A stretch of 41,975 nt of DNA, from NCBI GenBank assembly GCA_027023025.1, contig JALVXB010000018.1:1-41975 (forward strand). The letters run 5' to 3'. Position 1 is the first letter of the stretch. Every line of letters starts with the position of its first letter. Made by a program: the position numbers and the translations under genes. Below the pieces are notes generated by a model, which had not been told where the DNA came from, searched no databases, and was given only the letters and a program-made list of their open reading frames with translations. This document shows, piece after piece, positions 1 through 40,001 of this stretch. This stretch comes from Caldisericaceae bacterium (lineage in GTDB: Bacteria > Caldisericota > Caldisericia > Caldisericales > Caldisericaceae).

Positions 1-914
1 GGTGCAATTTCGTCCACCGTGTAGCCCGTCCAGCCCATACCAAGGTAGAAGTAACTTGCTTTCCCGGTGACCGGTTTTCCGTCCTGGTCTTTCAGGGTAA
101 GCGTGATAGACTGGTCCAGAGTGCCGTTTTCGTCGTCGTACAGAAGAGGATTCATAACGACGGGTTTTAATGTCCAGGTGATGTTGCTGAAGTTTGGAAT
201 TTTTGCATAAACAATTGCATCGTTATCTGGCGAAACGGATGGATAACCGTCCGAAATGTAGAGGTAGTAATACCAGAGGTCTGTCGTTCCTGGGAATGTC
301 AGTGTGAACTGCCCTGACGAATTTGCTGCGATACTGTAAGAGGTTGCGAGCTGTCCGTTTGGGTACACCACATTTACGGTAAGCGGCACTTTTACACTTT
401 CGCCGTTTCCGCGCGTAATGTATCCGCTGATCGTATTCGTCTTCTGAGGGCAAGGATTTATCTCTGTATTTGTAAGTTTTATATTGTACTTAATGTAAAC
501 AAATGTGCTGATTAGCCAGGTCTGGTTTGCAGTGTCGAGAGAGTCCGTTGCAACGACTTTGTACTTTCCGTCGTTTGGGACATTGCCCGTTCCTATAGAG
601 AATCTATTGCCCCCGTTCATCGTAACCTGATCTACCACTGTTCCGTCTGTTTTCTCCAGTGCAACGACCCATTGTCCGCTTACAGGCTCGCTAATTTCGC
701 CTTCTATGACATCTCCCATTCTGTAAATGTAAGTATTGCTTGCCGTTTGAAGCGTACCCGGAGCGGTAAATGTAGGTAGTGGGTTAAAGTAATACAGGTC
801 TTCTTTTACTTTGTTCTCCAGCGTAATGGAGGACGGTGCACTCGTCTGTCCTCGCGCATACCCTATTGGGGTAATTAAAAAAAGCACGAGTAAAATTGCT
901 AAAAACTTTTTCAT
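1..914 (-). CDS. Secreted Ig-like domain protein, 5' part (runs off left edge)
   Basis: The ATG at 914-912 follows a strong ribosome site (GGAGGTG). The reading frame stays open for 304 codons to the window edge. The product starts with a typical signal peptide: two lysines, a hydrophobic stretch of about 15 residues, and a likely cleavage site near residues 21-23 (YARG). The rest is rich in Thr, Ser, Asn, Gly and Tyr and reads like tandem beta-sandwich modules, with phrases such as GDVIEGEISEPVSGQWVVAL and FTLTFPGTTDLWYYYLYIS. Such proteins are usually surface or periplasmic. The C-terminus and any enzymatic or anchoring domain lie outside the window. It is divergent from the methyltransferase gene at 965, with only 50 bp between them. 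Confidence 0.75.
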   Translation of the reverse strand, partial: MKKFLAILLVLFLITPIGYARGQTSAPSSITLENKVKEDLYYFNPLPTFTAPGTLQTASNTYIYRMGDVIEGEISEPVSGQWVVALEKTDGTVVDQVTMNGGNRFSIGTGNVPNDGKYKVVATDSLDTANQTWLISTFVYIKYNIKLTNTEINPCPQKTNTISGYITRGNGESVKVPLTVNVVYPNGQLATSYSIAANSSGQFTLTFPGTTDLWYYYLYISDGYPSVSPDNDAIVYAKIPNFSNITWTLKPVVMNPLLYDDENGTLDQSITLTLKDQDGKPVTGKASYFYLGMGWTGYTVDEIA

Positions 915-4120: not shown

Positions 4121-4770
4121 CAGGTAAACGAACTTTATTTTTTCCGTTAGAACCGTTTTAAATGCGTTAGTTTTAATTGCGTTGAAACTGGATAGAGTAT
4201 TTTCTTTTTAGGCGTTTGCTCGTCCGCAGTCGTAAAAATTCGCAATGCTTACAAAAATAGTTTGTACTTACTAAAAAGTTTCTCATTTGTAAAGTATGTA
4301 AAACTTTCGAAACTACATTAAATCCGCCGAACTTACTTTTGGAATGCAGACGCAAAACGAAAACCGTAGATAAGGTTTATAGTCCGCTTATTCACTTGCG
4401 TAATGAGTTTCGCGTAATAAGTGTCGTAAAGAGTGCGATCTAATAAAATACTTTGCGTTCTCAAGAGTTTTTCCAGAAAAAATTTACCTCAAAAGAAGAA
4501 AGGGCGCGAAAACAAAACGCTCAAACGACACTTTGCCGTTATGCGTTTAGTAAGAAGGGTTTACACGCCCCGGTAAAACACCTCGGTAAAAGTAGCCTTC
4601 AGCGATGTTTTACGCTATGCAAGCCTGGAGGAAACAAAGATTAAGCAAAAACTCTTATCTGGAAGGATCTCTGTGCACTCTTTCAAAAAAAGAACTTTTG
4701 GCCTTTTTCCGTTTTCAGTATTATTCGGCGCTATCATCTGGCAAGAGTAAGAGGCAAAAGTTAATTTTTA
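4121..4770. other. Long gene-free region
   Basis: About 650 bp with no supportable gene. Short open frames here lack ribosome sites and resemble no family I know. Composition is AT-rich with scattered CG dinucleotides. A direct repeat of GCGTAAT occurs near 4400-4420. It may be decayed coding sequence or hold an unrecognised RNA. Confidence 0.5.
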
Positions 4771-4775
4771 TTACC

Positions 4776-4804
4776 GTTCTGCAACTGCACTTTTCTTGCA
4801 GAAC
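4776..4804. other. Strong hairpin upstream of the sigma-54 control region
   Basis: GTTCTGCAA at 4776-4784 is perfectly complementary to TTGCAGAAC at 4796-4804, with an 11-nt loop. There is no T tract on the plus strand. It may insulate the regulatory region or be a further protein-binding site. Confidence 0.45.
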
Positions 4805-4820
4805 TTTACCCTGTAGATAA

Positions 4821-4869
4821 GTGTAAAACAATTTTACACTTTTACACCTTTTGTAAAAAAATTTTACAC
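4821..4869. promoter_or_regulatory. Tandem 19-bp palindromes, likely enhancer-binding-protein sites
   Basis: GTGTAAAACAATTTTACAC (4821-4839) is an 8+3+8 palindrome. TTGTAAAAAAATTTTACAC (4851-4869) is a second copy differing at the first base of the arm and in the spacer. Their centres are 30 bp apart, close to three helical turns, so they lie on one face of the DNA. They are about 118 and 88 bp upstream of the predicted sigma-54 start site, the usual place for activator sites. An extra half-site TTTTACAC lies at 4840-4847. Confidence 0.7.
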
Positions 4870-4870
4870 T

Positions 4871-4910
4871 TTGCAGTGCTGCAAAATTTAACGATGCCTT
4901 TATAAAGGCA
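4871..4910. promoter_or_regulatory. Two further palindromes between activator sites and promoter
   Basis: TTGCAGTGCTGCAA (4871-4884, arms of 6) and TGCCTTTATAAAGGCA (4895-4910, a perfect 16-bp palindrome) lie between the tandem sites and the sigma-54 promoter. The second is well placed for a repressor or a DNA-bending protein. Their function is unknown. Confidence 0.4.
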
Positions 4911-4921
4911 CTTCTCCACTT

Positions 4922-4937
4922 TGGCACGGTTTTTGCA
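4922..4937 (+). promoter_or_regulatory. Sigma-54 (-24/-12) promoter
   Basis: TGGCACGGTTTTTGCA matches the full sigma-54 consensus TGGCACG-N4-TTGCW. The GG (4923-4924) and GC (4935-4936) are separated by exactly 10 bp. Transcription would start near 4948, 14 nt before the ATG at 4962 and just ahead of the ribosome site GGAGG (4952-4956). AcoR/SigL control of aco operons in Bacillus is a known precedent. Confidence 0.85.
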
Positions 4938-4961
4938 GTAAAAAGGTGGACGGAGGTGACT

Positions 4962-5942
4962 ATGGAATACGATAAGGAATTCTTGCAGGGTTTGTACGCT
5001 ACGATGGTGCGTATAAGAACCTTTGAATCAAAAGCAGAAGAACTGTTCCTTCAGGGAAAACTCCCCGGATTTATCCACCTCTACATCGGGGAGGAAGCAA
5101 TCGCAACCGGCGCAATGGCAAATCTAAGAAAGAGCGACTATATTACATCCACGCACAGAGGCCACGGCCACATGATTGCAAAGGGCGCGGACATTAAAAA
5201 GATGATGGCCGAACTCTACGGTAAGGAAACAGGGTATTGCAGAGGCAAAGGCGGTTCGATGCACATCGCAGACCTGTCGATCGGAGTATTAGGTGCAAAC
5301 GGAGAAGTTGCAGGCGGACTCCCAATAGCGGCAGGTGCGGGGATGGCAATCAAACTGCAGAAAAAGGACGATGTGGTAATTGCGTTTTTCGGCGACGGTG
5401 CGTCCAACAGAGGCGCATTCCACGAGGCGCTGAACTGGTGTTCCGTTTTCAAACTGCCCGTGATTTTCCTCAACGAAAACAACCAGTTTGCTTCTACTGA
5501 ACGCGTTCAGGAAACGACATCCGTTGCAAACATTTCCGACAGGGCAGTGGGCTACAACATTCCCGGAGTATCCATTGACGGAAACGATGTGATCGCGGTG
5601 TACGAAACGGTGAAAGCAGCGGTAGAACGCGCAAGGAGCGGCGGCGGCCCCACTCTTATCGAAGCAAAAACTTACAGGATAAAAGGGCACTTCGTAGGCG
5701 ATCCAACTCTTTACAGAGAGAAGAGCGAAGTGGACGAGCACTGGGCGCAGGAACCGATAGGACGCTTTGAGAGAGAACTCGTGAGCATGGGTTTACTGAG
5801 TGAAGAAGAGAAAAAGAAAATCTGGGATGCGGCAAAGTCTGAAGTAGAAGAAGCGGTGAAGTTTGCAGAAAGCAGCCCGTACCCTGCACCTGAAAGTGCG
5901 CTTACGGACCTTTTCGTTGACGACGCGGGTTACGATTATTAG
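4962..5942 (+). CDS. acoA: TPP-dependent acetoin/2-oxoacid dehydrogenase E1 subunit alpha
   Basis: A 326-residue E1 alpha subunit. It uses thiamine diphosphate to decarboxylate a 2-oxoacid, or cleave acetoin, and pass the acyl unit to lipoyl-E2. The TPP/Mg motif reads GDGASNRGAFHEALNW, ending in ENNQFASTE, and there is the RGHGH segment and the family stretch CRGKGGSMHIAD. The length and the GANGEVAGGLPIAAGAGMA stretch look closer to AcoA than to BkdA or PdhA, but substrate cannot be settled from sequence. The ATG at 4962 lies 5 nt after GGAGG; an in-frame GTG at 4956 overlaps that site and is less likely. It is the first gene after the sigma-54 promoter and ends 9 nt before E1 beta. Confidence 0.9.
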   Translation: MEYDKEFLQGLYATMVRIRTFESKAEELFLQGKLPGFIHLYIGEEAIATGAMANLRKSDYITSTHRGHGHMIAKGADIKKMMAELYGKETGYCRGKGGSMHIADLSIGVLGANGEVAGGLPIAAGAGMAIKLQKKDDVVIAFFGDGASNRGAFHEALNWCSVFKLPVIFLNENNQFASTERVQETTSVANISDRAVGYNIPGVSIDGNDVIAVYETVKAAVERARSGGGPTLIEAKTYRIKGHFVGDPTLYREKSEVDEHWAQEPIGRFERELVSMGLLSEEEKKKIWDAAKSEVEEAVKFAESSPYPAPESALTDLFVDDAGYDY

Positions 5943-32634: not shown

Positions 32635-34104
32635 TTATTCCCTCGGGAGTTTTATTACAAATGCTTTCTCTGTTTTGTTTCCTGCTCTGTCAAACGCCGT
32701 TACTTTCACGGAAATACTCTTTCCAAAAATGTAAATAGGAAGTTCTGCACTTTCATCGGTAAATACAAATGTAATTCCGTTCACTTCCGCTTCTGCGTAA
32801 TCGAAGTTTGCATCGCTTACGGAAAACTTCAGTAAATACGAAGGGTTATCCGCTTCAACAGGAGAAAGAAGCTGCACGAGCGGTGGCTGCGTATCGACAT
32901 TAAATTGCTTGCTCTGCACACTTTCCGTAACCTTAAACCCGTTTTTCAGGTACCCAACTGAATAGTAATAAAGCGTATAACTTCCATCCGGGAGCGCAAA
33001 CGGTTTTTCGTACTTTACGAACTGCTTTCCGTCAAAGCTGTAAAATGTATCCACTTTAGTAATAAGGCTTCCGCTCTCTGAGGTAAGGCACACATTCGGC
33101 GCACTTTTATAAAATCCGTTTCCTCCGTCAGGCGTTTCTGGTGTAACGGTACAAACCGTTTTTAAAAAGTACGGGCTTTCCACGCTAATCACATTCGATA
33201 AAACAGGAGTAAATTCTTTTGAAGTCCACACCTTTACATAAAGCGCCCCGCTTTCCTTTTCGCTCAGGCTAATCCCCCTTATTACGACTTTCACTTCAGA
33301 GTTTGCGTTAATGTCCTCAGGCACGACAATTGCAACTTCCTTTTCTTCCGTATCCGTCCCCTCAAAGTGCGTTTTTATAGTGGGGTTCATTGGCGGATTT
33401 TTCCCATTTACAGTAATGTCGTTTTTGGAAAGTGATACGATACCTTCAGACATAAGGTGCGAAAAACGGATAAATATAAAGTCCTTCGGCACGGGCTGCA
33501 CAAAGGAAAAACGCCCCATACGCACACTCTTTGTTTCGTATCTTTTAAGCGCTCCGTCAAAACCCGTTCTGAATGTGACGATAAAGTCACCTTCGAAGCG
33601 ATAAAGCAAAACATCTTTTACGGTGTCTATGTCAGTAACTTTGTAGTATTCCGATTGATAGGTGTTTTCCCCTACTTTTATAGACAGCGTAAAGTATCCA
33701 GCAGTTTGCGGGTTCTGCAGGATCCCCTTTGGAATGGCGATTTTCACCTTTTCAGAGCTATTAATAAAAAGCGGACTTTCAATGTCAATCTCGTGCCCTA
33801 AAAAGAGCGGCGTTTCATCGACGACTTTCCCATTTACTGTAATCTGCTCTGCAAGTTCGGTACTTCTGAATATGGGAATTTTATCGTCAAAAAGGATTGC
33901 GATTTTCTCCCCTTTACTGATCGTCGCATCGCTCTGAAACACAATGTTATACGCCGCAAAGTGCCCTACATAATTATCGGATAAATTCACAGAAGCAAAA
34001 CTTTCAGCCACTGAAACAGCAGACGAAACCTTTACAAAGGAAAGTAAAAGTACAAAAACGAGGAAAAGCGTAAACAGTTTTTTAATTGAAGCAATTTTAT
34101 TCAT
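32635..34104 (-). CDS. Secreted multi-domain protein with Ig/chitobiase-C-like repeats
   Basis: A 489-residue exported protein. The signal peptide (about 1-29) has a basic start, a hydrophobic core FTLFLVFVLLLSFV and a likely cut after VSSA. Residues 30-310 are beta-rich with two modules each containing a phrase like ITVNGK (EQITVNGKVVDETP, NDITVNGKNPPMNP). Residues about 330-410 match the chitobiase-C/OmpL47 pattern (FYSFDGKQFVKYEKPFALPDGSYTLYYYS ... VDTQPPLV), followed by a final Ig-like domain with FDRAGNKTEKAF. The ATG overlaps the stop of the MacB-like permease gene by 8 bp, so it is probably the exported substrate or external partner of that transporter (inference). Confidence 0.8.
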   Translation of the reverse strand: MNKIASIKKLFTLFLVFVLLLSFVKVSSAVSVAESFASVNLSDNYVGHFAAYNIVFQSDATISKGEKIAILFDDKIPIFRSTELAEQITVNGKVVDETPLFLGHEIDIESPLFINSSEKVKIAIPKGILQNPQTAGYFTLSIKVGENTYQSEYYKVTDIDTVKDVLLYRFEGDFIVTFRTGFDGALKRYETKSVRMGRFSFVQPVPKDFIFIRFSHLMSEGIVSLSKNDITVNGKNPPMNPTIKTHFEGTDTEEKEVAIVVPEDINANSEVKVVIRGISLSEKESGALYVKVWTSKEFTPVLSNVISVESPYFLKTVCTVTPETPDGGNGFYKSAPNVCLTSESGSLITKVDTFYSFDGKQFVKYEKPFALPDGSYTLYYYSVGYLKNGFKVTESVQSKQFNVDTQPPLVQLLSPVEADNPSYLLKFSVSDANFDYAEAEVNGITFVFTDESAELPIYIFGKSISVKVTAFDRAGNKTEKAFVIKLPRE

Positions 34105-35293
34105 ATCGCAGCGCCTCCACTGGATTTAATTTTGATGCCTTACTTGCAGGATACACGCCAAAGAACACGCCTATCAAAAACGACACGGTAAATCCGATTA
34201 TTACGGCACTCGTCGTAATGTGCGTGGGCAAAATATCCTGCGGGACGAGCACCGAGCCAAATATCCCGAGCAGGATGCCTATGATACCTCCGCTCGTTGA
34301 AATCAGTGCAGATTCGAGCAAAAATTGAATAAGGATGTCGCGGTTCTTTGCACCTACTGCTTTCCTTATGCCAATTTCGCGCGTCCTTTCTGCAACGGAT
34401 GCAAGCATAATGTTCATAATCCCTATTCCTCCAACGAGCAGTGCAATAGAGCCAATCGCTGCAAGTGCAATGGTGAAAATGTCCGTCACCTGTTTTGCAA
34501 GCTGCAAGTACTGCTCGAAGCTATTCAGGGTAAAGTTCTCCATCCCGTGCCGCGCAATAAGAAAACTCTTTATGCGTGCACCTAACACATCTATGGACAT
34601 TCCTTGCGGTGGTTTTGCGTAGATAATCTGTACATTTTTCGTTCTGAGCTGGCTCTGGAGCGTAGTAATTGGCACAAAAACGAGGTCGTCCATATCTATC
34701 TGCCCGATTGCGCCTTTTTCCTTTAGAGTGCCCACAACGAGAAACTTATTTCCGTGCAGCAGGATGTAGTTTCCCACGGCGTTCCCCAGCGGGAACAGTT
34801 CGTCAGCAACCTTCTTTCCAAGCACGCAGACATCCCTGTACCCCACGATGTCCCTGTCCGTAAGGATGCGCCCTTCCGCAACCTCGTAGTTCGTCACGAC
34901 GAATGCATCGGCGTTTGTCCCTACGACGGTCGTCGTGACTTCCGTCCGTCCGTACTTTGCCGTCGTGTTTACGCTGATTTCTGGTGCAATTTTTGCGTAG
35001 GGCATTTTCCTTTTCAGGAACTTTGCGTCGTCGTATGTAAGAGGCTTTCGCATTGCATTAGAGCCCACGGTAGACTTAAAAAGGTTTGCGCTTTTCCCCG
35101 GAATTACGATTACCACATCAGAGCCGAGCGACTGGATGCTGGACAGTATGCTGTACTGCGCACCGTATCCAACAGATGTAATAAGTATAAGCGACGAAAC
35201 GCCCACGACGACGCCCAGCGTGGATAAAAATGTGCGCATCTTGTTTATCTTTAAAGAAGAAAGTGCCATTTTGAATATACGCCATATCTTCAT
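34097..35293 (-). CDS. MacB/FtsX-type ABC transporter permease
   Basis: A 398-residue permease of the MacB type. Helix 1 (about 21-43) is followed by a periplasmic MacB_PCD domain (about 45-265, with AEGRILTDRDI and VCVLGKKVADELFP). Three C-terminal helices carry the FtsX signature IALLVGGIGIMNIMLASVAERTREIGIRKAVGA and FGVYPASKASKLNPVEALRYE. The fused ATPase domain of Gram-negative MacB is absent; the ATPase is a separate gene, as in YknXYZ. Its start overlaps the ATPase stop by 1 nt. MacB-type systems are mechanotransmitters that export peptides, lipoproteins or drugs. Confidence 0.93.
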   Translation of the reverse strand: MKIWRIFKMALSSLKINKMRTFLSTLGVVVGVSSLILITSVGYGAQYSILSSIQSLGSDVVIVIPGKSANLFKSTVGSNAMRKPLTYDDAKFLKRKMPYAKIAPEISVNTTAKYGRTEVTTTVVGTNADAFVVTNYEVAEGRILTDRDIVGYRDVCVLGKKVADELFPLGNAVGNYILLHGNKFLVVGTLKEKGAIGQIDMDDLVFVPITTLQSQLRTKNVQIIYAKPPQGMSIDVLGARIKSFLIARHGMENFTLNSFEQYLQLAKQVTDIFTIALAAIGSIALLVGGIGIMNIMLASVAERTREIGIRKAVGAKNRDILIQFLLESALISTSGGIIGILLGIFGSVLVPQDILPTHITTSAVIIGFTVSFLIGVFFGVYPASKASKLNPVEALRYE

Positions 35294-36003
35294 TACAGCA
35301 CCTCCACAGGGTCTTCGTTTACCTCTTCGCCTTCGATGAGGCCGTCCCTTATGTGAATCGTGCGGTGAGTAAAGCGGGTAATGGAAGGGTCGTGCGTTAC
35401 GATAATTTCAGTTACTCCGCGCTCTTCGTTAAGGCTGCGCAAGATCTTGATAATCTCGAGCCCTGTTTTCGTGTCGAGGTTTCCCGTTGGCTCGTCTGCA
35501 AGTACGATCACCGGTTCGTTTATCAAAGCACGCACTATGGCAACTCTCTGCCTTTCGCCGCCCGAAAGCTGTGCAGGCAAGTGGTTAAAGCGTTTTCCAA
35601 GTCCCACACGCGTGAGCATTTCCTTTGCACGGGCTTCAGCCTTTTTCAAATTGCCCTGAGGGTTGTAAATTACGGGAAGCAGCACATTTTCCAGTACTGT
35701 GAGGTGCGGGAGTAAGTTGAATGTCTGGAACACAAACCCGATTTTTCTGTTCCTTACATCTGCAAGCGCATTTTCCTCAAGCGTTGAAACATCCGTTCCG
35801 TCTAAAAAGTACTTACCGCTCGTGGGCGTATCCAGGCACCCAAGGAGGTGCATCAAAGTGGACTTCCCAGAACCCGACGGCCCCATTATGGAAACGAGCT
35901 CTCCTTCTTTAATCGTAATTGACACGCCGCGCACGGCTTCCACCTTCACCGGGCCAAGATCGTACGTTTTTTTCAGGTTTTCCGTGCGGATTACTTCGTT
36001 CAT
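35293..36003 (-). CDS. ABC transporter ATP-binding protein (LolD/MacB-ATPase type)
   Basis: A 236-residue ATPase of the MacB/LolD group. Walker A GPSGSGKST at 41-49, Q-loop FVFQTFNLLP, signature LSGGERQRVAI, Walker B VIVLADEPTGNLD, and the H-loop in IIVTHDPS. The ATG at 36003 follows CGGAGG; an upstream in-frame start at 36030 would overlap the adaptor gene and is unlikely. It stands 1 nt after the adaptor stop and overlaps the permease start, giving adaptor-ATPase-permease order. Confidence 0.93.
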   Translation of the reverse strand: MNEVIRTENLKKTYDLGPVKVEAVRGVSITIKEGELVSIMGPSGSGKSTLMHLLGCLDTPTSGKYFLDGTDVSTLEENALADVRNRKIGFVFQTFNLLPHLTVLENVLLPVIYNPQGNLKKAEARAKEMLTRVGLGKRFNHLPAQLSGGERQRVAIVRALINEPVIVLADEPTGNLDTKTGLEIIKILRSLNEERGVTEIIVTHDPSITRFTHRTIHIRDGLIEGEEVNEDPVEVL

Positions 36004-36004
36004 T

Positions 36005-37888
36005 TTAGCCTCCGTCCTTCTTTCCGCCAAAGGGAGACTGGTTTGTTTTTACCTCTCCAAACACGCGCTCGTCCGGGATGTCTAAAATCTTGTCGCCTTC
36101 CTTCAGGCCTGATAGAATTTCCGTGTAATTGTCAGAGGAAACGCCCACCTTAACGAAGCGTTTTTCAAATTTATCGTTCGGAAGCACCACTATCACATAA
36201 CTTTTTCCGTTTTCCGTCGCAACGGATTCTATTGGAACGGATAGCACATTTTTCTTTACCTCGGTCGTGATGTCTACCGTCGCACTCAGACCGTCCTTTA
36301 CATTCAAAGTCGAGTGTGGAAGTGCAATTTTCACTTCGTATGCCTGGACGCCCTGGTTCGTCAGCGTCGTAGTACACGCAACGGATTCCACGGTGCCGCT
36401 AAGCGTTTTGTAAGGAAATGCGTCAAAAGAAATAACGGCGCTCTGGCCTTTCTTGATGTTTACTGCGTCAATTTCGTCTGCAAAGCAGTCCACTATAAGG
36501 TGCTGCATATCCCCGACGATTGCGATAGTTTTACCTGGGGCGACTGTATCCCCTTCGCTTACGCTTAAAAGTAAAACCGTGCCGTCGCACGGAGCGGTAA
36601 TCGTGTAGTCGGAAAGCGCCTGTTCTGCAATTTTCATACTGGTGTATGCCTGCGACTTTTGCACTTCTGCCTGCTGTATGCGCAGCTTGTTTATCTGCAA
36701 CTGCTTCTTTGCGTTTCTCAGGTTTTCCTGCGCACTTTCAAGGGATGCCTCTGCCTGTTTTACCTGTTCATTGCGGATTTGCAGCGTATCAGTAGAAGCA
36801 TTTACGCCATTTTTTGCAATCTGTAAGTTGTTCTGCGCAATTTTCAGTTGAGATTCTGCGAGTTTTACCTGATTTTCTGCCTGAGCAATTTGCCCTTCCT
36901 TTGCCGCTTTTGCTTTCAAGGCGCTTTCGTAGTTCTGCTCTGCGATTTCGTATGCAACCTGCGCCTGGGAAACGCGGTCTTCTGCTTCCTGCATTTGCTC
37001 ATTTGTCGGGCTGCTGTGGTTCTGCAATTTGTCCAGCGCAAGGTTTGCAACGCGTACATTACTTTCTGCAAGCTGGACCTGATTTTCAAGAATTTTAATC
37101 TGCTCGTCTGGCGTGTTCGGGTTGTTTGCTGCCTGCTTCAGGCTCTCCTTTGCATTTTCCAGGTTTATCTGCGCCTGCTTTACGCGCTCTTTTGCGGTTT
37201 CGATGTCGTCGTTAGTGGGTTTCTGCTCTTTCAGTGCTTTCAGTTCAAGTCGTGCAATTGCAAGTGAAAGTTGCTGGTTTTGCATCTGGAGTTTAGAGAT
37301 TGCAATGTTCTCGTCGCTCGCGTTGCTTTTCTTCAGCGTGTCTAAATTCGCCTGTGCATTTTTCAAGTTTACTTCCGCCTGGTCCACCTGCTCTTCTGCG
37401 TTTTTCTCCTGAATGTCCGTGTTGTCGGAGTCTTCGGCAAGTTTTTCGTTGAGTTTTGCAATTTGAAGCGCAGCCTCCGCAGATTGCACGCTTAATTCTG
37501 CCTGTTTTACTGCAATGGAAGGCTCGTTAAGCTGAGCAATTTGAAGGTTTAGCGACGCACTTTTGTAAGCATTCACTGCGTTTTGATAGTTAAGGCTTGC
37601 CTGAGCGGAATCAATTTCACAGATTTTATCGCCCTTTTTTACGGTTGCGCCTTCCCGAACGAACAATTTCGTAACCTTTCCAGAAACTTTTGCAGGAACT
37701 GCAATCCTCGGCTCAGTACGCACCACTCCAGACAAACTCACGACACTTTTTATGTCCCTTCTCTGGACGGTCACGACTTTTCTGTTTGCAAGGGAATTCT
37801 CTTTTTGTTTTTGCCCGCAGCCTGCAAACAGCAGCGCGACTATCAACAGGGCTGACACTATCGCAAACTTCCTCTTCGTAATTTTCAT
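36005..37888 (-). CDS. MacA/HlyD-family adaptor lipoprotein with very long helical region
   Basis: A 627-residue periplasmic adaptor. The lipobox is at Cys24 (LLFAGC). The lipoyl/barrel half-domain (about 62-92, VSGKVTKLFVREGATVKKGD) and its partner (about 428-465, TITAPCDGTVLLLSVSEGD) flank a helical region of about 330 residues (94-426). A C-terminal beta-barrel and membrane-proximal domain follow (about 466-600). Usual MacA proteins are about 370-390 residues with a much shorter hairpin. Here short Asn/Pro/Asp/Ser/Thr breaks recur near residues 121, 155, 190, 225, 258, 293 and 363, about every 35 residues, suggesting tandem helix duplication. The ATG at 37888 lies 5 nt after GGAGG; a GTG at 37894 overlaps it. 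Confidence 0.9.
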   Translation of the reverse strand: MKITKRKFAIVSALLIVALLFAGCGQKQKENSLANRKVVTVQRRDIKSVVSLSGVVRTEPRIAVPAKVSGKVTKLFVREGATVKKGDKICEIDSAQASLNYQNAVNAYKSASLNLQIAQLNEPSIAVKQAELSVQSAEAALQIAKLNEKLAEDSDNTDIQEKNAEEQVDQAEVNLKNAQANLDTLKKSNASDENIAISKLQMQNQQLSLAIARLELKALKEQKPTNDDIETAKERVKQAQINLENAKESLKQAANNPNTPDEQIKILENQVQLAESNVRVANLALDKLQNHSSPTNEQMQEAEDRVSQAQVAYEIAEQNYESALKAKAAKEGQIAQAENQVKLAESQLKIAQNNLQIAKNGVNASTDTLQIRNEQVKQAEASLESAQENLRNAKKQLQINKLRIQQAEVQKSQAYTSMKIAEQALSDYTITAPCDGTVLLLSVSEGDTVAPGKTIAIVGDMQHLIVDCFADEIDAVNIKKGQSAVISFDAFPYKTLSGTVESVACTTTLTNQGVQAYEVKIALPHSTLNVKDGLSATVDITTEVKKNVLSVPIESVATENGKSYVIVVLPNDKFEKRFVKVGVSSDNYTEILSGLKEGDKILDIPDERVFGEVKTNQSPFGGKKDGG

Positions 37889-38371
37889 ACGCACCTCCCG
37901 AATTAGGCAAGCATCTTTTTAAACCTACCCTTATCCTGTAATTATCCACCATAAATAAGTTTCATAATTATTTTACTTCTCTGCAGTTATTCCGCATTCG
38001 CTTTTGCCTTTTCCGCAATTACTTCTATCTTTATTTTTTGCCTCTCTGTAATTATTTCTGCAACCATTTCTTTACTTTTATATTTTTTGCCTCTTCACAA
38101 CTACTTATAGCATCAAAATATAAAAATAACTGTAATTTTATAATTATAAAATTTTATATATATTATAAACCGAATTATTGGTTTGTAAATAGATTAAAAG
38201 AAAAATAATGGGTAACGGTTAAGGAAAAATCAAAAAATAGCCAAATAATATATTGATACTGTATAAAGTGCTCTTGTGAGTGTAACATTAACAAGACAAC
38301 TACATAACTTCCCTTATAAGAAATTGATAAATCACTTTGTTATAATATAAAAACTATGGATCTTTATATAT
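37889..38371. other. AT-rich intergenic region with short imperfect repeats
   Basis: 483 bp with no supportable gene. Three imperfect copies of a TTTTGCCTcTtcgCAAtTACTT-like unit lie between about 38002 and 38108. Below 38371 the sequence is strongly AT-rich. The upstream control region of the adaptor operon must be here (minus strand), but no consensus promoter is obvious. Confidence 0.5.
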
Positions 38372-38463: not shown

Positions 38464-38655
38464 ATGAAAGGAAAAATTAAGACGACAAGTAGAATTAAGG
38501 TAAGTAGAAACAAAAGTACATCTAAGGAAATAATGCACAGTATTTTGTTTATGGTGAACGACTTATTCGTTGTTTATCTATTAAACACACATTCCTCCCC
38601 TGCCCTGTTGTTCACCCCTGAATTTCAAAGCAAAGGAGGAATGATAAGCCTATGA
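38464..38655 (+). CDS. Small leader ORF of the insertion sequence
   Basis: 63 codons from an ATG that has a very strong ribosome site (CCAAGGAGGTG). Its stop TGA overlaps the transposase ATG in an ATGA arrangement. The product has a basic N-terminus and a hydrophobic centre (IMHSILFMVNDLFVVYLL); no family is recognised. Coupled translation could limit transposase synthesis. It may also be a by-product of the leader region. Confidence 0.45.
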   Translation: MKGKIKTTSRIKVSRNKSTSKEIMHSILFMVNDLFVVYLLNTHSSPALLFTPEFQSKGGMISL

Positions 38656-40001
38656 GTCTAAGCTCTAAGGATATTTTATCACAACTTATGGAAAACAAGA
38701 ATAGAGACAGGGGAACACTGTTGGAAGGGTTAGAAGACTTACTAAAGGAAAAGATGAAGGAGATGATAAAAGAAGTACTTGAAGAAGTAGCATATGAAGA
38801 AAGAGAAATGTTCTTTGAAGAAGAAAGAAGCAGAAGAGAAAAGAAAAAGGAAATAATAAATAAAGACGGTAATACAAATAGAAAGAATGGCTTCTACAGC
38901 AGGAACTTACTCACACAGATAGGAGAAGTGGAACTAAACATACCAAGGGATAGATACGGTGAGTTCCATCCATTCTTCATAGACAGGTACAACAGAAACC
39001 TATTCACCATATCAGAGATTGTTATCTCTATGTACCAAGGAGGACTCAGTACAAGAGACATCAAAAACACATTAAATAACCTATTGGGTAAGAAGTACTC
39101 TCCATACTGGGTGTCAAGGATTACGGATACACTCATAGAGCAGGTGGATAAGTGGAAGAACAGAAAGATTGAAGAATACTTTCCTATTATCTATATGGAT
39201 GGATTATACGTAAAGGTAAGAAGAGCAGGTATCGTTGATTCAGAGTCATTTGTCGTAGCAATAGGGATTAATGAGTATGGCTATAGAGAAGTATTAGGGT
39301 TCATTGAAAGTGGAGCAGGAGAATCAAGGGAAAACTACAAAGAACTCGTTATTAGCTTAAGAAATAGAGGATTAAAAGAACCACTGCTCTTTGTTTCAGA
39401 TGGACTGATAGGAATTGAAAGCATAATAAAGGAGATATATCCTAATGCAGAGTTCCAGAGCTGTATCATCCATAAGATGAGGCATACGCTGCTTAAGGTA
39501 AGGAAGAGAGACAGAGATGCTGTATCAGAAGAGTTAAGATATATCATCCATCAAAACACAAAGGGAGCATTCGTAGAAGCATTCGATGCATTCCAAACAA
39601 AGTGGAAGAAGGTATATCCATACATAGTAAGAAGCTGGAAGAATAACCTTGATACACTGACTACATTCTTCAACTATCCTGAGGAGATAATAAGGTACAT
39701 CTACACGACAAATACTGTTGAAAGGTTTATCAAAGAAGTTAAAAGAAGGACAAAGGTCATAGAAGTATTCCCTTAGGTAAACTCTGCAGAGAAGATCGTC
39801 TACCTTGTATCCATAGATATGAATGAGAAGTATGCATCAAGAAGGCTCAGAGGATTCCAGAGTGCACACGATGCACTGATAAAGATAAGGGAAGAAAGAT
39901 ATGGCAGGAGTAAAGAAGGAAGAAAAGGAAAAGAAACAAAGTATAAAACTAACACACCATTAGTTTCAACAACTGATAAAATGGAGGCTTCTACCCTATG
40001 A
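38652..40001 (+). pseudogene. IS256-family transposase with in-frame amber stop
   Basis: The frame reads 449 residues with one TAG at 39774-39776 (codon 375). Up to there the protein shows the Mutator-family catalytic triad: Asp183 (IYMDGLYVKVR), Asp250 (LFVSDGLIGIES) and Glu357 (YTTNTVERFIKEVKRRTKV), plus the CIIHKMRH motif. After the stop the same frame continues with VNSAEKIVYLVSIDMNEKYA and a basic tail, the normal C-terminal part of the family. So a single nonsense mutation removes the last 75 residues. The triad remains, but the truncated protein is probably inactive. Confidence 0.85.

Follow-up and report, generated by a model that had tools for sequence, protein, structure and literature searches.

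A MacA-like adaptor from a Caldisericaceae bacterium with an expanded helical domain of about ten repeated units

The DNA analyzed here (the window, 41,975 nucleotides) is a whole contig of a 1.66-Mb Caldisericaceae genome that is 99.89% complete, and it encodes a MacA-like adaptor that is a real and unusual variant: about ten repeated helices of 34 residues make up its helical domain, which amounts to about three times the usual quantity of helix. Our data point to a task other than TolC docking for the helical domains of such adaptors. A passage of PMC4446572 already notes that the large hairpins of Gram-positive adaptors are hard to rationalize. In the open-licence PMC papers on long adaptor hairpins of monoderm bacteria and on TolC absence, we found neither the repeat, nor size steps of whole hairpins, nor a link to TolC; the repeat anatomy, the whole-hairpin steps and the connection to the absence of TolC are what is new here.

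The adaptor gene is directly followed by genes for a LolD/MacB-type ATPase, a MacB-type permease and a secreted protein of 489 amino acids. The genes and the domains of the adaptor are as follows, with the evidence for each given in brackets.

36005..37894, minus strand: MacA-like membrane fusion protein (adaptor), 629 aa, GTG start (ORF, Pfam, curated scores, structural match)
37817..37894, minus strand: signal peptide, residues 1-26, with a lipobox-like LLFAGC in which Cys26 is the likely lipid anchor (sequence inspection)
37610..37711, minus strand: first lipoyl half, residues 62-95 (Pfam Biotin_lipoyl_2 at 68-95; strands in the AlphaFold2 model)
36611..37606, minus strand: expanded helical domain, residues 97-428, about ten units of 34-35 residues (autocorrelation, AlphaFold2, family insert lengths)
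36059..36607, minus strand: second lipoyl half, residues 430-462, followed by the beta-barrel and membrane-proximal domains, residues 463-612 (Pfam HlyD_3 at 431-529; MacA alignment 32..612)
35293..36030, minus strand: ABC ATPase of the LolD/MacB type; a TTG start is listed, and an ATG just behind the adaptor stop is likelier (Pfam ABC_tran, curated scores)
34097..35293, minus strand: MacB-type permease, MacB_PCD plus FtsX (Pfam, curated scores)
32635..34104, minus strand: secreted 489-aa protein (signal peptide by inspection)

An alternative ATG lies two codons into the adaptor reading frame and would place the end of the gene at 37888, the position used in the first-pass annotation. The adaptor scored 144.5 bits against RND_mfp (TIGR01730; cut-off 94.9), which places it among the membrane fusion proteins (periplasmic adaptors), and 104.1 bits against the MacA equivalog NF008606, below the cut-off of 342. 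Pfam and the model agree on a lipoyl domain that is split by a helical hairpin and followed by a beta-barrel, with the hairpin part enlarged. E. coli MacA (9qgy) was the best structural match of the adaptor model (Z 16.9, 332 residues aligned, 4.8 Å), and Spr0693 matched it as well (VIA Z 14.9, 216 residues). Taken together with the adjacent MacB-type genes, these data bear out the initial call of a MacA-like adaptor and demonstrate that the protein outside its helical domain is MacA-like in family and fold. In the lipobox-like site, Gly25 is invariant and the Cys is present in 10 of the 12 rows of the family alignment. A search of PDB sequences with the family profile returned adaptors, biotinyl domains and a weak tropomyosin-type coiled coil; PHROGs yielded a weak peptidase match along with two families that have no assigned function, and one scan of viral contigs found no relatives. 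The genome contigs gave no match to the adaptor as a single-protein query, but the profile query did find relatives.

The adaptor, ATPase and permease genes occur together in 16 of 18 loci from relatives in the class, the other two holding adaptor fragments, and the ATPase and MacB-type permease in the operon mark the system as an ABC exporter of the MacAB type. The gene for the 489-aa protein overlaps the end of the permease gene by 8 bases, and its product matched nothing in Pfam or the PDB. Relatives of this protein are encoded near the permease in six of the 18 adaptor loci, including Cryosericum, and all six carry a long-form adaptor or a fragment of one. Upstream of the adaptors L014 and L015, which represent two genera, lies a gene of 1062-1077 codons for an NHL/beta-propeller protein with a C-terminal Cu_amine_oxidN1 (L123 8244-11429; L124 5612-8842), and two other genera possess an amidohydrolase gene at the upstream position. 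In the window itself, a Mutator-family transposase gene (374 aa, 38652-39776) lies upstream of the adaptor operon in divergent orientation; its profile match stops at position 356 of 379, and the gene may be cut short. No RNA families were found within the 41,975 nucleotides.

To describe the helical domain, we relied on a full-length AlphaFold2 model that was built from a 12-sequence alignment and had a local confidence mostly between 57 and 92. It contains the helices H1 (97-122), H2 (126-154), H3 (159-189), H4 (194-222), H5 (228-256), H6 (263-292), H7 (298-362) and H8 (369-428), which span 332 residues (97-428) and agree with the roughly 330 helical residues put forward in the first-pass annotation. 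All seven breaks that it had proposed (at residues 121, 155, 190, 225, 258, 293 and 363) lie inside a predicted loop or at most two residues away from one (loops 123-125, 155-158, 190-193, 223-227, 257-262, 293-297 and 363-368). Strict periodicity would call for an eighth break near residue 328; the model has none there, and H7 is consequently of double length.

The repeat was assessed by autocorrelation against shuffles of whole heptads, which preserve the heptad pattern, with a family-wise 95% limit of z 3.45. The window protein peaked at lag 70 (z 4.8), so that the anticipated repeat signal is present beyond the heptad-preserving shuffles; lags 34 and 35 reached z 2.7 and 2.5, each alone under the limit, and both were strong in most relatives. 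The best lag above 20 was 34, 70, 102 or 104 in all 12 family rows, which equals one, two or three units of about 34-35 residues, and the heptad lags of 7 and 14 were also strong. From the earlier proposal of a 35-residue period equal to five heptads, the repeated helices and a period near five heptads stand, while a strict value of 35 has to give way to a unit of 34-35 residues composed of about four heptads of core and a break. Among 31 long-insert adaptors examined for a repeat, 13 (one of them Cryosericum itself) exceeded their own shuffle limit and 18 did not. The best lags of these 13, found in Chloroflexota and others, were, e.g., 26, 33 and 39. Repeated units of a break and a helix are therefore not unique to the class Caldisericia.

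The size of the domain varies within Caldisericia in discrete steps. The insert between the lipoyl halves measures 336-338 residues in 16 of 17 distinct long-form sequences and 322 in one, and this length is still held where identity to the window protein falls to 26%. Three genomes of the genus Cryosericum possess an insert of 268-281 residues, from which approximately H5-H6 is missing; the insert is 132 residues in four genomes of the genus g7, 179 in the more distant G028, and only 14 in the G005 adaptor (L023; L125 = G005:C175:1-10882, ORF 4444-5400), which has no helical hairpin. The operon of G005 is orthologous, its ATPase and permease each being about 62% identical to those of the window, and this hairpin-less adaptor shows that the helical domain is dispensable at least there. 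Insert sizes of 336-338, 268-281 and 132 fit approximately 34.2n-5 with n = 10, 8 and 4; a comparison of repeat number, suggested at the outset for strains and made here between relatives, returned about ten, eight, four or zero units in orthologous operons. Near the end of H7, in-frame copies of Asn-Leu-Ala-Glu vary in number between close relatives (L028, L155).

In a tree of the flanking domains, which contains long branches and in which the 14 form is one genome, the 132 form stands beside a 337 form (support 96/95) and the 14 form beside the clade of the window itself (96/89). Since the 132 and 14 forms are nested among 337 forms, the ten-unit form looks, from sequence comparison, to be the older one within these two families and would have been trimmed at least twice. 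MAFFT placed the 132 form as H7+H8; we did not retain this placement over H1+H2+H8, because half-leg profile scores tie between H1+H2 and H7, and H7 wins the ungapped whole-leg score because H1-H2 needs a two-residue gap. H1+H2 and H7 look paralogous, so that the sequence is compatible with either composition of the 132 form.

The predicted helices can be assigned to legs as follows.

37433..37606, minus strand: leg 1, H1 (97-122) and H2 (126-154) (helices from AlphaFold2; leg assignment inferred from structural matches)
37229..37420, minus strand: leg 2, H3 (159-189) and H4 (194-222) (helices from AlphaFold2; leg assignment likewise from structural matches)
37019..37213, minus strand: short hairpin, H5 (228-256) and H6 (263-292) (AlphaFold2, alignments, structural matches)
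36809..37003, minus strand: leg 3, the long helix H7 (298-362) (AlphaFold2)
36611..36790, minus strand: leg 4, the long helix H8 (369-428), which returns to the lipoyl domain (AlphaFold2)

For the isolated helical domain, AlphaFold models were computed from 17 sequences (pTM 0.73, best pLDDT 78.9; five models with 78.9, 74.2, 59.6, 45.6 and 43.2), and shape and leg order were read from the alignment ranges of structural matches. The three-long-helix bundles 9rn6 and 4tql aligned over three legs, the former with residues 1-265 of the domain model (195 of 210 residues, 3.6 Å) and the latter with 202 residues at 5.9 Å; H4-H5-H6 matched ordinary three-helix bundles (5yny, 103 residues at 2.4 Å; 5j1g, 101 residues at 2.1 Å; 8fih, 1.9 Å). 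The Thermotoga chemoreceptor 2ch7, which we take to be a straight antiparallel two-helix rod of about the size of one long hairpin here, fitted the models poorly (TM 0.22-0.32, rmsd 59.5 Å), and the MukB elbow reached TM 0.18-0.19. The alignment ranges of the two AlphaFold models support a folded bundle as the predicted shape of the domain, not one hairpin of 240 Å. With moderate confidence, given that helical bundles can reach Z values of 9-12 through a shared general arrangement, we infer four antiparallel legs of 60-65 residues and about 95 Å (H1+H2, H3+H4, H7 and H8) plus the short H5-H6 hairpin; in length, the predicted legs are close to the ordinary hairpin legs of relatives that have TolC. 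The first-pass annotation had left a choice between a ladder of repeated helices and a very long hairpin. Of the two, the ladder agrees better with the predicted bundle, and the single ordinary hairpin that had been named as the contrary outcome did not appear in the AlphaFold predictions.

A straight hairpin of about 160 residues per strand and 240 Å, jointed every 34-35 residues and reaching through the cell wall to an outer layer, would nevertheless account for the mirrored positions of the breaks about residue 260 (225 with 295; 157 with 365), for strands that would balance (about 160 versus 166 residues), and for the deletions in L013 (6 near residue 121 and 7 near residue 403), which would face each other at equal height in the rod. 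It also accords with the lengthening of adaptor hairpins via heptads inserted in both helices, as described in part of PMC4446572, and a monomer prediction says nothing about the hexamer. We nonetheless consider a straight rod rather unlikely, since both AlphaFold models read as folded bundles, rods such as 2ch7 and the MukB elbow fit them badly, and the loop of about eight additional residues, rich in Thr and Ala, that L155 and L028 carry at H2/H3 is more easily reconciled with a turn than with a joint. The symmetric nesting of breaks and indels is explained equally well by an unfolded rod and by a rod bent back at half its height, and the helical-domain alignments, when searched for an indel that would cleanly separate the two, contained none. 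Far less probable is a drift of low-complexity coiled coil, in which the helical region would lack a specific architecture and the repeat would reflect heptad composition only. The strong heptad lags and the abundance of Ala, Gln, Asn and Glu in the helical region are what such a drift would produce, but the signals at lags 34 and 70 exceed heptad-preserving shuffles, the length is kept in all but one of the 17 long forms, and 17 aligned rows share 25 invariant columns in the helical domain.

Searches of the window's own genome with the OEP (TolC family) and Omp85 models gave no match. Among the 41 genomes of the class, OEP was found in none and Omp85 in one, which is 80% complete; each model was positive in 7 of 14 control genomes. 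The sole Omp85 match (G014:C77:939-1802) lies in a genome that has no adaptor match, possibly on a foreign contig. RxxxLxxxxxxS, the RLS motif for TolC docking (PMC3391258), was absent from the helical region in all 12 rows, a single N-terminal match in L016 lying outside this region. With neither a genomic outer-membrane factor nor an RLS motif detected, the system does not qualify as a MacAB-TolC tripartite pump, and our data lend no support to an adaptor that crosses a wide periplasm to reach TolC. The earlier idea that the domain spans a wide periplasm, understood as a reach to an outer-membrane duct, is further weakened by predicted legs of about ordinary length. For Caldisericum exile, the portion of PMC4104836 available to us describes an outer-membrane-like envelope seen by electron microscopy and states that BamA was not found.

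We then compared insert lengths with the presence of TolC in the 80 best-scoring relatives of the long-form profile from named genomes, which are not a random sample; OEP matches were counted per genome, the completeness of the compared genomes is unreported, and the longer insert was taken where a genome had two adaptors. The comparison used 66 of the 80, divided into OEP-bearing genomes with at least four OEP matches (36) and OEP-less genomes with none (30). Nine were left out for repeated lipoyl matches (L060, L065, L071, L080, L084, L090, L102, L111 and L113), three as unmeasurable (L047, L054 and L095), and two with only one to three OEP matches (L055 and L072). The median insert was 119 residues with OEP and 245 without (Mann-Whitney p 3.6e-7); it was at most 143 in 31 of the 36 OEP-bearing genomes and at least 181 in 27 of the 30 OEP-less ones. 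The insert of 337 residues in the window protein is accordingly far longer than that of the usual MacA, as had been proposed. Phylum medians (5 versus 10 phyla, six genomes left out) gave p 0.008 with phylum assignments that are in part our own assumption. Long inserts of 220-268 residues occurred in five of the 36 genomes with OEP (both Armatimonadota, two of three Poribacteria and one Omnitrophota), and short ones of 63-106 in three of the 30 without. Adaptors with tandem lipoyl domains, mostly from Bacillota, speak against a simple rule with their short last inserts (34-64) and zero to five OEP matches; the Geobacter-type representatives L065 and L071 would fit it with an insert of 131. In L060, L080, L084, L102, L111 and L113 (mostly Clostridia), a tandem double lipoyl match is combined with short inserts, as if a lipoyl-hairpin module had been duplicated. 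One orthologous operon is found with about ten, eight, four and zero units, and insert length follows the absence of TolC-family proteins; together, these observations make the hairpin question testable. If the link is true, docking would determine adaptor length in bacteria with TolC, and a different task would do so in bacteria without it.

Several known systems share features with this adaptor. MacA of the MacAB-TolC pumps of E. coli and Aggregatibacter has the same split lipoyl, beta-barrel and membrane-proximal domains, with MacB-type ATPase and permease genes adjacent; the protein studied here differs from it in its insert of about ten units, its lipobox-like anchor, its score under the equivalog cut-off, and the absence of both an RLS motif and a genomic TolC family. 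Spr0693 and YknX are likewise adaptors of MacB-type pumps in Gram-positive bacteria, which have no outer membrane, but Spr0693 possesses one hairpin and a helical barrel of 56 Å (excerpt of PMC5768738), whereas several hairpins are predicted here. The nearest solved precedent for the predicted shape is CusB (3ne5, Z 14.5), whose hairpin is folded back as a four-helix bundle (part of PMC4446572); CusB, however, has a shortened bundle and serves an RND metal pump, in contrast to the predicted legs of 60-65 residues and the short extra hairpin. BesA of Borrelia (4kks, Z 16.3 to the barrel and lipoyl parts) is hairpin-less like the G005 orthologue with its insert of 14, but is part of an RND pump that has BesC as a dedicated outer-membrane channel (passage in PMC8277102). 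MesE, ComB and their kin in Gram-positive secretion have "extremely large hairpin domains", a size for which bridging is not a sufficient explanation according to part of PMC4446572; these are HlyD-like and have other partners.

We consider it reasonably probable that the protein serves a MacB-type ABC exporter as its adaptor in a TolC-less bacterium, with a multi-leg helical barrel that grew and shrank by whole hairpins and guides or chaperones the substrate. By analogy with MacA and Spr0693, the latter a hexameric tube on a MacB-type transporter of a Gram-positive bacterium in the accessible part of PMC5768738, six adaptors would ring a MacB dimer. Their legs would form a thick-walled or wider helical barrel, about 95 Å high, that stands on the lipoyl ring. 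As outlined in a passage of PMC5985334, mechanotransmission in MacB-type transporters propels substrate already located outside the membrane; here, MacB might drive such a substrate up through the adaptor barrel. Without a TolC tip to accommodate, the domain would be free to gain and lose whole hairpins. Lacking both a TolC protein for docking and the RLS motif, the barrel would itself guide the substrate across the gap beneath the outer layer or chaperone a polypeptide. Some operons encode a candidate partner, the secreted protein of 489 aa.

Two further readings of this exporter can be weighed against the same data. Adaptors of TolC-less MacB pumps might carry their own exit duct, with hairpins multiplying as whole units and six copies building a barrel of 24 long helices that does the job of the TolC barrel within the wall; freedom from docking would then also explain the oversized Gram-positive hairpins. 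The hairpin steps seen in the class would be none, one, two, or two plus a short one, and we regard this proposal as unlikely. Alternatively, the main role of the domain might be that of a cage that chaperones or folds (as a "foldase") a secreted polypeptide, possibly the 489-aa protein. Cargo folding has been proposed for large Gram-positive hairpins (in a section of PMC4446572), and the relatives of the 489-aa protein accompany long-form adaptors or their fragments in each of their six loci. Long-form operons that lack this protein exist, however (L121, L123 and L124), and MacB-type exporters handle many types of substrate; a cage as the main function seems quite improbable to us. As a separate observation on permeases of this type, genome G000 contains three consecutive open frames that match MacB_PCD and are 849, 857 and 853 codons long (G000:C1:24065-31835; L166 4066-11836), the first of which has MacB_PCD and FtsX in Pfam, and which form a tandem array of large FtsX-type permeases.
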